DNA from: an uncultured Flavobacteriales bacterium
GTDB taxonomy: Bacteria; Bacteroidota; Bacteroidia; Palsa-965
Direction: 5' to 3'
Assembly: GCA_903873905.1 (NCBI GenBank)
Contig: CAIQQJ010000116.1
Span: forward strand, 1 to 41,810
DNA length: 41,810 bases
Shown here: one piece after another, positions 1 through 41,810 of the stretch
How the letters are laid out: the number at the start of each line of letters is the position of its first letter
How positions within the stretch are numbered: position 1 is the first letter of the stretch
The notes under the pieces: model-generated
Database searches by the model: none
Seen by the model: only the letters and a program-made list of their open reading frames with translations
What the model was told of the DNA's origin: nothing
Translations under genes and position numbers: made by a program

Positions 1-157
1 AAATTCATTTACAAACCGATGCGCTACTCCCAACAATACTGTTGGGACGCTACACCCCGATAAATATTTTAAAGAACAAAATTCATTTACAAACCGATGC
101 GCTACTCCCAACAATACTGTTGGTACGCTACACCCCCGATTATTATTTTAAAAGAAC
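1..157 (-). repeat. Truncated tandem array of about 78 bp tRNA-Pro-like units with a palindrome
   Basis: Two units lie 78 bp apart (about 1-78 and 79-157). They differ in the shared core by one substitution (position 124) and one extra C. Read on the minus strand, each unit starts at 138 or 59 with CGGGGTGTAGCG (one extra G in the inner copy), then TCCCAACA-GTAT-TGTTGGGA, then GTAGCGCATCGGTTTG. This matches a tRNA-Pro acceptor strand, D-stem, D-stem return and 5' anticodon stem, with the D-loop replaced by a 20-bp palindrome (28-47; 106-125, one arm base changed). The sequence leaves the tRNA pattern at the anticodon loop; no anticodon-stem return, T-arm or acceptor return is present. An AT-rich linker joins the units, and a similar AT tract lies before the inner copy. 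The array starts just after the ribH stop and runs off the window, so copy number is unknown. The tRNA relationship is from memory of tRNA-Pro sequences. Confidence 0.75.
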
Positions 158-162
158 TACTT

Positions 163-657
163 CTATTTATTCATTTTGTCACGAAGCTCAAGCATTTTCA
201 GTGCTGTTATTGCTGCTTCGTCTCCTTTATTCCCGTGAACTCCACCTGATCGATCAATTGCTTGTGCGAGGGTGTTTGTTGTTAGGACGGCAAAGATAAC
301 AGGTTTACTCAAACTGATGTTTAATTCTGTGATTCCGTACGTAACTCCTTGACAGATAAAATCGAAATGTGGTGTTTCGCCTTTTATTACACAGCCAATA
401 CAGATAACTGCATCAATATTTTCATCCGTTCCAGCCCATTCTGCACCCAAGGTCAGTTCAAATGCACCTGGAACATTATGGATTTCAATGTCACTTTCAC
501 TAACTCCATGTTTTTTCAAAGAACTAATGGCTCCGTCACGCAAGGCAAACGTGACCTCAGAATTCCATTCGGCAACAATTATTGCAATTCGCTGTCCTTT
601 ACCTGATTTGATGCTATCAGCATTGTAATCAGAAAGATTTTTCAGAACTGTTGCCAT
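163..657 (-). CDS. ribH: 6,7-dimethyl-8-ribityllumazine synthase
   Basis: This enzyme condenses 5-amino-6-ribitylaminouracil with 3,4-dihydroxy-2-butanone 4-phosphate in the penultimate step of riboflavin synthesis, normally as a cytoplasmic icosahedral or pentameric assembly. The 164-aa length is typical. Visible family motifs are AEWNSEV near residue 30 (aromatic substrate contact), GAFELT at 64-69, GCVIKGETPHFD at 89-99 with the catalytic His at 97, LTTNTLAQA near 125-133, and the C-terminal GNKGDEAA at 142-149. It lies 66 bp downstream of the TPR gene on the same strand and is probably co-transcribed with it. I recall ribH, a TPR protein and recF as a common Bacteroidota neighbourhood. 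The stop codon is followed within about 25 bp by the tRNA-like tandem array. Confidence 0.97.
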   Translation of the reverse strand: MATVLKNLSDYNADSIKSGKGQRIAIIVAEWNSEVTFALRDGAISSLKKHGVSESDIEIHNVPGAFELTLGAEWAGTDENIDAVICIGCVIKGETPHFDFICQGVTYGITELNISLSKPVIFAVLTTNTLAQAIDRSGGVHGNKGDEAAITALKMLELRDKMNK

Positions 658-8955: not shown

Positions 8956-9645
8956 TTATTCCTTTTCTCGATTAAAGGCGTAATATATTCCTGCATTGAA
9001 ACGGACAGAAAATAATTCATCGGTAAATTGAGAAGAGTTCATGATAAAATCTACTTGAGAAAAAATGTAGAATTTATCCAACTCGTAAAATCCAGAAAGG
9101 AAAATGCCGGTGAGTGTACCATAACCTTTGTTTATTACTTCTCCATTTGTCTGCGTCATCATTTGATTCTGAAAGACGGGCAGGTAATAATTTTGTGGAT
9201 CATATCCTGGTAAATCATATGTCGTTTTTCCAATTCCCATCCCTGCACCGAAACCAATATTCAAAGAAAGAAATTCATTCCAGCGCTGTGGTATTTCAAA
9301 TCCAATTTTTAGTATTCCTTCAACTTGAGATTGTTTTCGTGTTCCTCTGAAAATTACATCAGGTGTATTATTGGATGCAATACCTAAAACAGCAGTATCC
9401 GCTTTTGAACCTGGAAAATAGGAGAAAGCTAAACCGATATAAGCTTGTTGGAATCTATCAATGCCCAATTTTGTTCTCAACAAATCTCCTCGGATACCAA
9501 ATTTCATTGGTTCTTTTGTTACCACGTTATTTACCATTGCACTTGGTAACATGAGGACCGGCATCGCTGACAAACCAAATTGCTTTTGTGCGAAGACATT
9601 TGTAACGGAAAATAAAAGAAGGAAGAAAATTAAAACTGATTTCAT
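8956..9645 (-). CDS. Paralogous secreted barrel-like protein, series member 1
   Basis: First of the five paralogs in transcript order, 229 aa, with signal peptide MKSVLIFFLLLFSVTNVFAQ. It shows QFGLSAMPVLMLP after the signal, a central FEIPQRWNEFLSLNIGFGAGM block, YELDKFYIFSQVDF, and the terminal NAGIYYAFNREKE, which lacks the aromatic last residue of members 2 and 3. It follows the 544-aa secreted protein gene by 16 bp. Function unknown; co-expression with the protease and the other paralogs is inferred from spacing. Confidence 0.75.
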   Translation of the reverse strand: MKSVLIFFLLLFSVTNVFAQKQFGLSAMPVLMLPSAMVNNVVTKEPMKFGIRGDLLRTKLGIDRFQQAYIGLAFSYFPGSKADTAVLGIASNNTPDVIFRGTRKQSQVEGILKIGFEIPQRWNEFLSLNIGFGAGMGIGKTTYDLPGYDPQNYYLPVFQNQMMTQTNGEVINKGYGTLTGIFLSGFYELDKFYIFSQVDFIMNSSQFTDELFSVRFNAGIYYAFNREKE

Positions 9646-9661
9646 TGATAATTAAATAAAC

Positions 9662-11296
9662 TCATTTGAATTCTACCTTGCCAAACTGATACACTTTCGA
9701 TTTTTGGCTACAAATGAATACTTCTTTTGCGCCTGTTTGCATGCACATTTTCGGTCGGACAATCAAATCGCCTTTTTCTGTTGTTAGTAATAATTCACGT
9801 GTTGCTTGACCATCGCTATTTACTTCCACCAATACAACAGCAAGTTCTTTTGATCCTGTAAATGGGAAAGGCTGTTCAGCACCTTTAAGAAAAAGATTTT
9901 TCGGATTGTCATTGAAAATGAAATAAATTTTATCACCTATTATTGAAAAGTTGTAAGAACTATAGTATCCTCCATCATTGGCAGTACATTGTCTTTTCGG
10001 TATTCTAGTTTTCCAAACGATCTGACCAGTTTTGTTAAAATTGATAACAAGGATGTCATTATAATTGTAATAGTAAGTTGTATGTGTAGAGGAAGAATGT
10101 GTGTTCGGATCATAGGTGGTATACGTTACGACATTCACGAAATATTGTTCGGCAATTAGTGTTACTCCTCCATCTTTTGCGGTCAATAATTCATCAAGAC
10201 GAAATTGATAGAGTTCAGGTTCTTCTCCTTTATCCTCTTTCCTTTTTTCTTTCCTTTTTTCTTTTTCAGTATAATATTGCGTGATAAAATCAGTTTCAAA
10301 TTCTGTTATTTGTTGTGTTTTCACTTCATGTGTTTTTGCATCCAATGCAATGTAAAAAGCGCCTTTGATACTGAATGAGTTTTTTTCAGAATAAAATCCT
10401 GCTGCGATAATATCTCCATTAGGAGCCCCATCAATTTGTAAATCGGTAATGAATTTCCCTTTCAAGTCAACAGGCATTTCGAGTACATCACTTCCATTTG
10501 CTGCATAGCGGAACAAATGGTAAGTATAGGATGGTTTTCCTTCCCGACGAGAGACTCTTGCATCTGATTTTTCTTGGTATTCAATTCCGATCAAATAAAC
10601 ATCACCATCATCATTGACTTTTATTTGCTCCACAGAAAAAATGCTCGGATCGAATGGAAGTTTAATGTCCTTTTCCCATTTTTTTTCCATTGTTGCATCG
10701 AACACTGCAAGATGGAATTTGGTATTTGTAGGCAGCGCACCATTTTCATCTTTTTCTTGATTAGTGCTGTAAATAAGAATTTGCGTTTCATCTGGGGAAA
10801 TTGAATGCGAAAAAAGATTACCAGAATAAACAGCCGCTTGCATCATCCCACGACGATTTTCATAAGTGGAAGAAGCAATTTCTTTTGGTTTATTGTCAAT
10901 TTGGAGTGTTGAAATGGAAACCGATTGTACAAAAAGTGTCATTTTATTCAAGCGCGAATCTTTCGAGTTGGAGAAAATAAATAAATGTCCATCAAGCATA
11001 GTTGTATAATCGTAGTACATCGGATTGTCTCCATCCTTTTGTTTGGGAATCTCCACCGATTTATCGACCACCATTTGTTTGTTGATGTGTTCTAGAAATA
11101 AATCTCTCTTTTGCGTTCGGACGATATAATAACCCGATTCATCGTATCCGCAGATGTCTTGAACGGAAGATCTTTTTGCTTCGATTTCCGGCCCTTCAGT
11201 TATGCTGGCTTTTTTTGTTTTGGTTTGAGCAGAAACACTTGTTGTTGAAAAAACGATTACAGTGAATGCCAGAATAGTAGAAATAAAATATTTCAT
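9662..11296 (-). CDS. Large secreted protein of unknown function, first gene of the envelope operon
   Basis: A 544-aa protein with signal peptide MKYFISTILAFTVIVFSTTSVSAQ. The mature region consists of repeated short beta-rich segments (VKVNDDGDVYLIGIEYQ, INFNKTGQIVWKTRIPK, FSIIGDKIYFIFND), suggestive of a beta-propeller, with a charged lysine/glutamate stretch near residue 345. No catalytic motif or sorting domain is visible. It lies at the head of an eight-gene minus-strand block that continues to 3045 with spacings of -4 to +24 bp. Upstream, TATTTTTA at 11335-11342 is a 7-of-8 match to TAnnTTTG; no perfect box is seen. I do not recognise the family. Confidence 0.75.
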   Translation of the reverse strand: MKYFISTILAFTVIVFSTTSVSAQTKTKKASITEGPEIEAKRSSVQDICGYDESGYYIVRTQKRDLFLEHINKQMVVDKSVEIPKQKDGDNPMYYDYTTMLDGHLFIFSNSKDSRLNKMTLFVQSVSISTLQIDNKPKEIASSTYENRRGMMQAAVYSGNLFSHSISPDETQILIYSTNQEKDENGALPTNTKFHLAVFDATMEKKWEKDIKLPFDPSIFSVEQIKVNDDGDVYLIGIEYQEKSDARVSRREGKPSYTYHLFRYAANGSDVLEMPVDLKGKFITDLQIDGAPNGDIIAAGFYSEKNSFSIKGAFYIALDAKTHEVKTQQITEFETDFITQYYTEKEKRKEKRKEDKGEEPELYQFRLDELLTAKDGGVTLIAEQYFVNVVTYTTYDPNTHSSSTHTTYYYNYNDILVINFNKTGQIVWKTRIPKRQCTANDGGYYSSYNFSIIGDKIYFIFNDNPKNLFLKGAEQPFPFTGSKELAVVLVEVNSDGQATRELLLTTEKGDLIVRPKMCMQTGAKEVFICSQKSKVYQFGKVEFK

Positions 11297-39533: not shown

Positions 39534-41411
39534 TCAGTTCACCGGAGCAATTCTTGCCCTATTTCCAGGTGACATCAATCGAAGATTATTGATTTTCATG
39601 CCCGGTCTTTCATAATAGAAATCGGCATTGTCAAATCGTTTATGAATGACCATTTTTCTTGGTGCTGAGAATAGAAAAACATATGGTTGTTCGTCGTAAA
39701 TAATTTTCTGTAAACGTTTTTCCATTGGCATTCTTTCTGTAGCATCAATTGTTGTTCTCAACGAATCAATGAGAGCATCCGATTGGGTAGTACCAAAGCC
39801 AATAAAATTTGAACCATTGTTACCCCAAGAAGTGGAATGCCATACCTGTTTATAATCTTCCGCTGCAAATCCTCCAGACCATGCGCCGAGATACATATCG
39901 AATTTATGTTGTGCAAGAAGCTCATTCATAGCACTGAATTCAATTACTTTGACATCCACTTTTATTCCTGCAGGGTACATGGCTTTTGCTACATCAGTTG
40001 CAATACTTAAAAAAATTGGACCTTGTGAAATATACAGTTCGCATTCAAACTGAACTTTTTTTCCATCAATCATTTTATCGCGGATATTATCACCGTCCGT
40101 ATCTATCCAGCCTGCTTCCTCCAATAATTGTTTTGCTTTTTCAATAGCATATGGAATGGGTTGCAATGTTGCATCATAAATGTCTTTATTTATTGGGGAA
40201 ACCAAACTTGTCATGCGTAATGCTTTACCAGAAAAATAATTATTGTTGAGGTCATTCACTGGCGTAAGATAAGCCATGGCTCTTCGTACGCGCACATCCG
40301 TAAAAAATGGAATCCGATTGACAGCTGCTGGTTTCATGTTCAATCCCATATACTGGTAACCGAAATTTGGAACAAAAGCATAATGATAATTGCGGGTGAA
40401 ATTGCTGTCTTTACTCAGTTCAACCAAGCCTCGTGTACTGATCCAGGAAGAGGCGTCGATGGTTTGTTGTGCCAAAGAAATTGCAATGTTATTGTCATCA
40501 AGGTTCAATTTGAAAATTATTTTTTCCGGTAATGCCACATCATACATGTTCGGATTTTTCAATTTGGACGTCCAATGATTTTTCTTTTTTGTTAATTCGA
40601 TTCTTTGCTGTTCTTCCCAAGCTGTAATCTTATAAGCTCCTAGGCCATTGAAGAAATTTATATCGTGACCATATTTTTCATCATTGAATTCCTTCGCCCA
40701 CATTTCGAGATCTCCATGTTTCTTCTTTGTAAAACTTGAATCATCAAATAGTCCCATTGAATAATTGGAAAGAATATTTTTTGGATCGAGAAATTTCTTT
40801 TGCAAAATTGGCATATCAGCAAATACGGCATCGTTTTGAATGTATTTTGCTTTCATTAGAACATAAAATTTCCGCGGATTGGATGGATCTTTCTCAATTG
40901 ATTTTACATAATCAAAAGTTGAGCGAGCAAAAGCATCATCGGTCAATGGACATTTCCAAGCCATGACGGTAAATAGTACATCATCAACACTTAATTGCGT
41001 TCCATCATCCCAAGTTGGTTCTTCTTTTAATTCGTAAGAATAACGTAACCCATCTGATGAAACGCTTGGCAACGACTTGATTAAATCAGGTCGAAATTTC
41101 AAATCCTCCATATCTGAACTAACCAGAAAGCGTTGTGTAAAACTCATTATTACGAGGGCAGCATCCGTATTTAATCCATTCGTTGGATGAAGACTTCCAG
41201 GTTCGGCTTTCCATTGATACACTACAACATTTTCTTTGGACCAATCACTTTCCCATTTTGTGGCGCCATTGGTATGAATAAATTTGACGGAAGTGTCAAT
41301 GTTGGAATTTTTTGTTGAGTCGTTATTTTGAAATTTGCCTTCAGGTGAACCACAAGTAGAAAGCAGCAAAACAGTGGTAATGGCGAAAAAGCAATACTTG
41401 AAAAGACCCAT
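39534..41411 (-). CDS. Oligopeptide ABC transporter substrate-binding lipoprotein
   Basis: The start at 41411 gives a lipoprotein signal MGLFKYCFFAITTVLLLSTC (Cys20); the upstream extension of 48 codons is not protein-like and covers a promoter element. The 625-aa product belongs to the SBP_bac_5 (OppA/DppA) family: FRPDLIKSLPSVSSDGLRYSY, WDDGTQLSVDDVLFTVMAW, VRRAMAYLTPVNDLNNNY, AKQLLEEAGWIDTDGDNIRD and the late YLGAWSGGFAAEDYKQVWHS. It captures peptides or similar ligands in the periplasm for the two permeases downstream. First gene of the transporter unit. Confidence 0.94.
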   Translation of the reverse strand: MGLFKYCFFAITTVLLLSTCGSPEGKFQNNDSTKNSNIDTSVKFIHTNGATKWESDWSKENVVVYQWKAEPGSLHPTNGLNTDAALVIMSFTQRFLVSSDMEDLKFRPDLIKSLPSVSSDGLRYSYELKEEPTWDDGTQLSVDDVLFTVMAWKCPLTDDAFARSTFDYVKSIEKDPSNPRKFYVLMKAKYIQNDAVFADMPILQKKFLDPKNILSNYSMGLFDDSSFTKKKHGDLEMWAKEFNDEKYGHDINFFNGLGAYKITAWEEQQRIELTKKKNHWTSKLKNPNMYDVALPEKIIFKLNLDDNNIAISLAQQTIDASSWISTRGLVELSKDSNFTRNYHYAFVPNFGYQYMGLNMKPAAVNRIPFFTDVRVRRAMAYLTPVNDLNNNYFSGKALRMTSLVSPINKDIYDATLQPIPYAIEKAKQLLEEAGWIDTDGDNIRDKMIDGKKVQFECELYISQGPIFLSIATDVAKAMYPAGIKVDVKVIEFSAMNELLAQHKFDMYLGAWSGGFAAEDYKQVWHSTSWGNNGSNFIGFGTTQSDALIDSLRTTIDATERMPMEKRLQKIIYDEQPYVFLFSAPRKMVIHKRFDNADFYYERPGMKINNLRLMSPGNRARIAPVN

Positions 41412-41539: not shown

Positions 41540-41547
41540 TACCTTTG
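41540..41547 (+). promoter_or_regulatory. Candidate -7 promoter element for the tRNA-Ser-like array
   Basis: TACCTTTG matches TAnnTTTG and lies 21 bases upstream of the first tRNA-Ser-like unit at 41569, the spacing expected for a short-leader tRNA transcript. No clear -33 element. It suggests that the array is transcribed. Confidence 0.45.
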
Positions 41548-41568
41548 CGCCTCAATAATTTACCATCA

Positions 41569-41810
41569 GGAGAGGTGGGTGAGTGGCCGATACTCCCAAC
41601 AGAAATGTTGGGACTAAACTGCCGAACATCAAACGCCTACCAAGAGGACGAAAGGATTATGAAAATAGAAAAATGAAAATGAAATAAACATAGGAGAGGT
41701 GGGTGAGTGGCCGATACTCCCAACAGAAATGTTGGGACTAAACTGCCGAACATCAAACGCCTACCAAGAGGACGAAAGGATTATGAAAATAGAAAAATGA
41801 AAATGAAATA
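41569..41810 (+). repeat. Truncated 124-bp tandem array with tRNA-Ser-like head, palindrome and A-rich tail
   Basis: The unit at 41569-41692 is repeated without a mismatch for the 118 bases available up to the window end. Each unit starts GGAGAGGTGGGTGAGTGGC, which I recognise as the 5' strand and D-arm of a Bacteroidota tRNA-Ser. The palindrome TCCCAACA-GAAA-TGTTGGGA follows (41594-41613; 41718-41737), then CTAAACTGCC, which resembles the 3' half of a GCU anticodon arm. The expected 5' anticodon-stem strand is missing, and no T-arm or acceptor return follows. GGTGGGTG (41574-41581) can pair with CGCCTACC (41634-41641) with two wobbles, closing a structure around the palindrome hairpin. The unit ends in a purine-rich tail (GAGGACGAAAGGATTATG, then mostly A with G and T) containing a five-codon frame from that ATG. 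Copy number beyond the window is unknown. Confidence 0.8.

Follow-up and report, generated by a model that had tools for sequence, protein, structure and literature searches.

The DNA analysed here, referred to as the window, is an entire contig of 41,810 bp (contig C116 of genome G000, an assembly of 3.93 Mb in 181 contigs), and among named genomes a relative of the same family is VBWE01000003.1, from the metagenome-assembled genome Bacteroidetes bacterium isolate X1_MaxBin.021. Tandem arrays lie at both ends of the contig, and the features that concern us are as follows.

1-157, minus strand: second array (period 78), made up of truncated copies of tRNA-Pro whose D loop contains TCCCAACAGTATTGTTGGGA; the modules occupy 28-47 and 106-125.
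163-657, minus strand: ribH (lumazine synthase) gene, whose orthologues in congeners adjoin tRNA-Pro(TGG).
39534-41411, minus strand: family 5 solute-binding protein gene, whose orthologues in five relatives adjoin an intact tRNA-Ser(GCT).
41540-41547, plus strand: Bacteroidota-type -7 promoter element TACCTTTG, at the site of the tRNA-Ser promoter in relatives (leaders of G002, G003, G005, G006 and G007).
41569-41692, plus strand: unit 1, a damaged tRNA-Ser(GCT) copy with a palindrome module and an A-rich spacer (from TRF, alignment and base identity).
41569-41592, plus strand: tRNA-Ser 5' part of unit 1, comprising acceptor strand and D arm; every base agrees with the beginning of the intact tRNA-Ser(GCT) of G016.
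41594-41613, plus strand: palindrome module TCCCAACAGAAATGTTGGGA of unit 1, replacing the 5' side of the anticodon stem.
41614-41658, plus strand: resumed tRNA-Ser, with CTAAACTGCCG (anticodon 3' strand) and then degenerate variable and T arms (from alignment; the part 3' of CTAAACTGCCG aligns to tRNA-Ser weakly).
41659-41692, plus strand: A-rich spacer between the units (from sequence).
41693-41810, plus strand: unit 2, the same as unit 1, ending at the contig edge after 118 bases; module at 41718-41737.

TRF reports 41568-41810 as a tandem repeat of period 124 with 100% matches and zero indels, and 41568-41686 is identical to 41692-41810 across 119 bases, so the perfect 124-bp tandem repeat of the original prediction is confirmed. 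Each unit runs in the order GGAGAGGTGGGTGAGTGGCCGATAC, TCCCAACAGAAATGTTGGGA, CTAAACTGCCG, degenerate variable and T arm, and A-rich spacer. The head of the unit, GGAGAGGTGGGTGAGTGGCCGATA, which had been called tRNA-Ser-like, matches exactly the start of an intact tRNA-Ser(GCT) that is present in genome G016 and begins GGAGAGGTGGGTGAGTGGCCGATACCAGTAGTTTGCTAAACTGCCG. The promoter element that had been proposed does lie where relatives place their tRNA-Ser promoter, and the palindrome that had been noticed is the module of both units, whose family is above chance in the window and in the genome. What had been taken for the body of the unit is, by alignment, this palindrome, which stands within a tRNA-Ser(GCT) gene and occupies the position of the 5' side of the anticodon stem. 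The A-rich stretch, which had been read as a tail, is the spacer between units and is specific to this locus. Judged from its sequence, the repeat is a tandem array of broken tRNA-Ser gene copies, each with a small dispersed hairpin, and the simpler view that the original prediction had also offered, namely, tandem duplication of a damaged tRNA gene, was right because the unit aligns to tRNA-Ser(GCT) on either side of the module. In keeping with the damage to the copies, no tRNA in the window was called, either by ARAGORN (0 genes) or by Rfam at the gathering score. The predicted fold of the unit has a z score of -4.1 against shuffles and of -1.7 once the palindrome is removed; the closing stem that had been proposed is present in the predicted fold, but it is the palindrome that supplies most of the stability. 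The unit has no match among the plasmids and viral contigs searched.

An intact tRNA-Ser(GCT) with a similar promoter stands beside the solute-binding protein orthologue in G002, G003, G005, G006 and G007, and at this orthologous site tRNA-Ser copies are missing in all five. The completeness of the present assembly is given as 100%, yet it is without an intact tRNA-Ser(GCT): no other tRNA-Ser(GCT) was found in it with the Rfam tRNA model, ARAGORN, or pattern searches, and pattern searches for the 3' half gave zero matches. From the synteny and the absence of the gene elsewhere in the assembly, the intact tRNA-Ser(GCT) most likely lies just beyond the contig end. The original prediction had expected a tRNA there, and the five relatives support this for a gene whose presence we infer. 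Four further tRNA genes are within about 210 bp of contig ends (G000:C3:13791, C62:130, C136:32457, and C161:49906), so tRNA-linked repeats may be a general cause of breaks in this assembly.

The array at the other end of the contig is imperfect, with 93% matches by TRF. Its contig-terminal copy reads CGGGGTGTAGCG-TCCCAACAGTATTGTTGGGA-GTAGCGCATCGGTTTG on the minus strand, and this is a truncated tRNA-Pro whose D loop contains a module belonging to the same family. In congeners an intact tRNA-Pro(TGG), and mostly also a tRNA-Arg(TCT), is found beside ribH, and in G003 the same place holds a truncated tRNA-Pro with TCCCGAGTAATCGGGA followed by the intact tRNA-Pro. On another contig of this genome (L086 345-387, G000:C89) there is a 3' half of tRNA-Pro (TTTGGGAGCAG...CCACCCCGAC) with the 5' half missing; it matches the end of the intact tRNA-Pro of G004 and has the appearance of an attachment site for an integrated element.

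Broken copies of the kind found in the two arrays, as far as sequence comparison can tell, recur beside many tRNA genes in the genus, the comparison covering one genus and a few outside genomes. In the present genome truncated upstream copies are also found at tRNA-Arg(TCT), tRNA-Arg(CCG), and tRNA-Ser(TGA), and each of the three shows, on comparison with its intact neighbour, an exact 22-bp insertion without target duplication, namely, TCCCGGAGGGACTCCTTCGGAG in the anticodon loop, TCCCATAGGGATCCCTTCGGGA in the D stem, and CCACAGGGTGGTCCCTTCGGGA in the anticodon loop, in that order. The tRNA-Ser(TGA) leader has two further 22-bp insertions, and each 22-mer consists of two tandem 4-3-4 hairpins. 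At tRNA-Cys of this genome a 3' copy with TCCCAACAGAATTGTTGGGA lies downstream. Congeners have copies at tRNA-Phe, Arg(CCG), Arg(ACG), Pro, Asn, Gly, Leu, Thr, and Met, among others, and complete arrays followed by the intact tRNA are assembled in G003 at Arg(CCG) (period 80) and Arg(ACG) (period 101) and in G005 at Thr(CGT) (period 51). At any given tRNA the copies are sporadic among species, and the modules at one site differ from species to species. Downstream repeats like those of tyrT, made of the last 14-20 nt of the tRNA and the terminator with palindromic DNA between, were also observed (L148, L155, L157, L229, and L232).

The copies were counted around 178 tRNA genes from this genome and six congeners, a copy being an exact sense match of at least 11 nt to the tRNA's own gene within 400 nt, and swapped flanks served as the control. 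Upstream copies were found at 13 loci, against a swapped-flank mean of 2.0 and maximum of 5 and with 0 antisense, and downstream copies at 24 loci, against a mean of 2.4 and maximum of 7 and with 3 antisense. The upstream copies are mainly 5' parts, and the downstream copies are mainly 3' ends, usually including the terminator. Hairpins of the form TCCC...GGGA occur at 11 of 12 upstream-copy loci and at 2 of the 166 others, but two of the 12 loci had been recognised through their hairpin, so that 9 of 10 is the fairer count. When the module sites were scored by hand, 13 of 17 lay in a tRNA loop as against about 35% expected, with the reservation that related sites among the 17 may be non-independent.

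The module is a dispersed element. Its pattern, CTCCCAACANNNNTGTTGGGA, has 44 matches in the genome, some of which are one palindrome scored on both strands, against 0 for the reversed control, and within the window the family has 4 matches where 0.25 would be expected. Most of the matches are embedded in dispersed repeats of larger size, where they often form the tip of a longer hairpin. Large dispersed repeats of about 100 bp, with ends like GCGTGAGGGAT and GGGCACGCC and exchangeable palindrome modules at the hairpin tips, were seen on many contigs of this genome (L003-L037, G000). The idea that double 4-3-4 hairpins form a very abundant genome family was rejected because there are only 26 in 432 kb as compared to 10-15 in Markov sequence; about ten of the 26 are GC-rich and alike. 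In the alignments of the tRNA-Ser(GCT) and tRNA-Pro copies the module substitutes for tRNA bases and is not a clean insertion.

The explanation that we consider probable is that the array represents part of tRNA-Ser(GCT), copied and tandemly amplified but without function, between the original promoter on one side and the intact gene on the other, and that it arose by duplication, module entry, and re-amplification. The copies, the modules and the synteny can be read from the DNA itself. A tandem duplication with one endpoint within the tRNA gene would leave a partial copy upstream together with one intact gene, an outcome shown by the assembled equivalents in congeners, where the arrays are followed by the intact tRNA. 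A small dispersed palindrome module would have entered the redundant copy before or after this duplication, by a route that we infer, and the module-bearing unit would then have been re-amplified through slippage or unequal recombination, presumably recently since the units are 100% identical. Duplication of the leader and the 5' half would put a 5' part upstream, whereas duplication of the 3' half and the terminator would put a 3' part downstream; duplication with one end inside the gene would thus account for the polarity of the copies and for their location between promoter and gene. Insertion of a module would be harmless in a redundant copy and lethal in the sole intact gene, which would explain why modules are seen only in redundant copies. 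During tRNA maturation RNase P probably cuts off the leader RNA together with its copies, in which case the array would be tolerated rather than used. Three observations count against parts of this scheme. An intact tRNA-Ser(GCT) was not found in this assembly. The near-constant presence of modules in partial copies speaks against independent steps and, together with the loop preference, suggests some coupling of duplication and module entry, and the replacement of bases at tRNA-Ser(GCT) and tRNA-Pro means that simple insertion explains the array incompletely.

A rival reading has a single process behind both the modules and the duplications: a small structure-seeking element would enter tRNA loops, and its insertion, or the repair of the cut, would yield the tandem duplication, with a Y1 (IS200-like) transposase or a GIY-YIG nuclease able to cut tRNA genes perhaps responsible. 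We regard this as possible but doubtful. It agrees with the finding that almost every upstream copy has a module, most often in a tRNA loop, with the three Y1_Tnp genes of the genome, and with the five small GIY-YIG ORFs of the sampled DNA, each of which is within 600 nt of a tRNA gene and one of which sits between a truncated and an intact tRNA-Ser(TGA). However, no module of the kinds searched for was found in the DNA around the three Y1_Tnp genes, a single genome contributes four of the five GIY-YIG ORFs, three of them as one tandem set, and most copies are without an adjoining GIY-YIG ORF. Similarly tentative is the proposal that this genus has a mobile palindrome system adapted to tRNA genes, in which the entry of modules into loops would be coupled to duplication of the tRNA end, with the tRNA always regenerated, and which GIY-YIG or Y1 enzymes would perhaps serve. 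The small GIY-YIG nucleases and the Y1 transposases may be candidate players, as a lead rather than a result. The small GIY-YIG ORFs beside tRNA genes are at L067 about 1218-1457 (G000:C145), in G005 at L219 about 10032 and L231 about 9343-9862, and in G007 at L100 downstream of tRNA-Ser; in G005 three tandem GIY-YIG copies follow tRNA-Asn, where the tRNA 3' end is apparently read into the ORF.

That the tandem repeat is an assembly artefact of the contig end is quite unlikely. In favour of an artefact are the position of the repeat at the edge of a contig and the length of the repeated stretch, 119 bases, which is odd as k-mer sizes are, but a loop in an assembly graph requires reads that link the end of the unit to its start, similar arrays are found inside large contigs of congeners, and the array at the contig start matches only at 93% and is thus not an assembler copy. 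It is very unlikely that the copies are functional, as transcribed leader or trailer units whose RNA regulates or protects the tRNA in the way proposed for the E. coli tyrT repeats. The copies are within the tRNA transcription unit and the unit folds better than shuffles, but it is mainly the palindrome that carries the fold, tRNA-Ser copies are absent in five of five relatives, and the variation of modules between species at the same site and the sporadic occurrence of copies at a given tRNA argue against a conserved function. The SINE-like tRNA-derived retroposon of the original prediction, suggested by a layout in which a tRNA 5' part precedes an unrelated body and an A-rich stretch, has hardly any chance of being correct because the body is inside the tRNA sequence, which resumes after the palindrome, because the local tRNA gene and the known dispersed module explain the whole unit, and because the search of its own genome for the whole unit gave only the two tandem units, the other matches being the 22-bp module or short A-rich stretches and the dispersed whole copies, whose target duplications could have been checked, numbering zero.

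A tandemly amplified partial tRNA copy with modules has likenesses to several known systems. In E. coli, tandem repeats of 178 bp at tyrT (rtT RNA) reportedly contain a piece of the tRNA gene and adjoin the intact gene. The present array is alike in having a tRNA piece in a tandem repeat, the downstream 3' copies of congeners look similar, and an intact gene is predicted here and seen in congeners; unlike the tyrT repeats, the array in the window is upstream, holds the 5' part, and carries palindrome modules, and neither rtT nor any other Rfam family matched the window at the gathering score. Cyanobacteria have very small mobile repeated elements, the short dispersed repeats of about 21-27 bp, which are exact insertions without target duplication. 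By description and not by sequence, these are likened to the exact 22-bp insertions at tRNA-Arg(TCT), Arg(CCG), and Ser(TGA), but at tRNA-Ser(GCT) and tRNA-Pro the module replaces bases. The Rickettsia palindromic elements are small palindromes inside genes, longer and inserted in frame in proteins; by contrast, the present modules leave intact genes alone and strike redundant copies of tRNAs. In the GTAG/CGTC REP families there are clusters in which a palindrome is repeated in tandem together with flanking DNA segments (PMC3733652). A small palindrome in many dispersed copies (44 matches, control 0) and its tandem reiteration with flanking DNA are shared with these families, whereas the flanking DNA here is repeatedly a piece of a tRNA gene. 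Membership in them was rejected since only 1 of 31 modules has a GTAG or CGTC tag at its hairpin foot (within 9 nt), and the mark of a REP with its own Y1 transposase (RAYT), a transposase gene with the same palindromes on its flanks, was not found, the modules of the kinds searched for numbering zero in the DNA around the three Y1_Tnp genes. The parts of the system thus resemble REP-like palindromes, very small precise insertions, and tRNA-linked repeats, and for their genus-wide combination no description was found, which is weak evidence because the literature search for palindrome-bearing partial tRNA copies left most subscription journals outside its scope.

It has long been asked how elements of some 20 bp spread, and this genus supplies many natural cases at defined tRNA loops. 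A broken copy beside its intact twin is a record of before and after, from which the length of the element, its site, and the lack of target duplication can be read. The arrays would, in addition, account for the breaks at tRNA genes in assemblies of such genomes and for the apparent lack of essential tRNAs in them.
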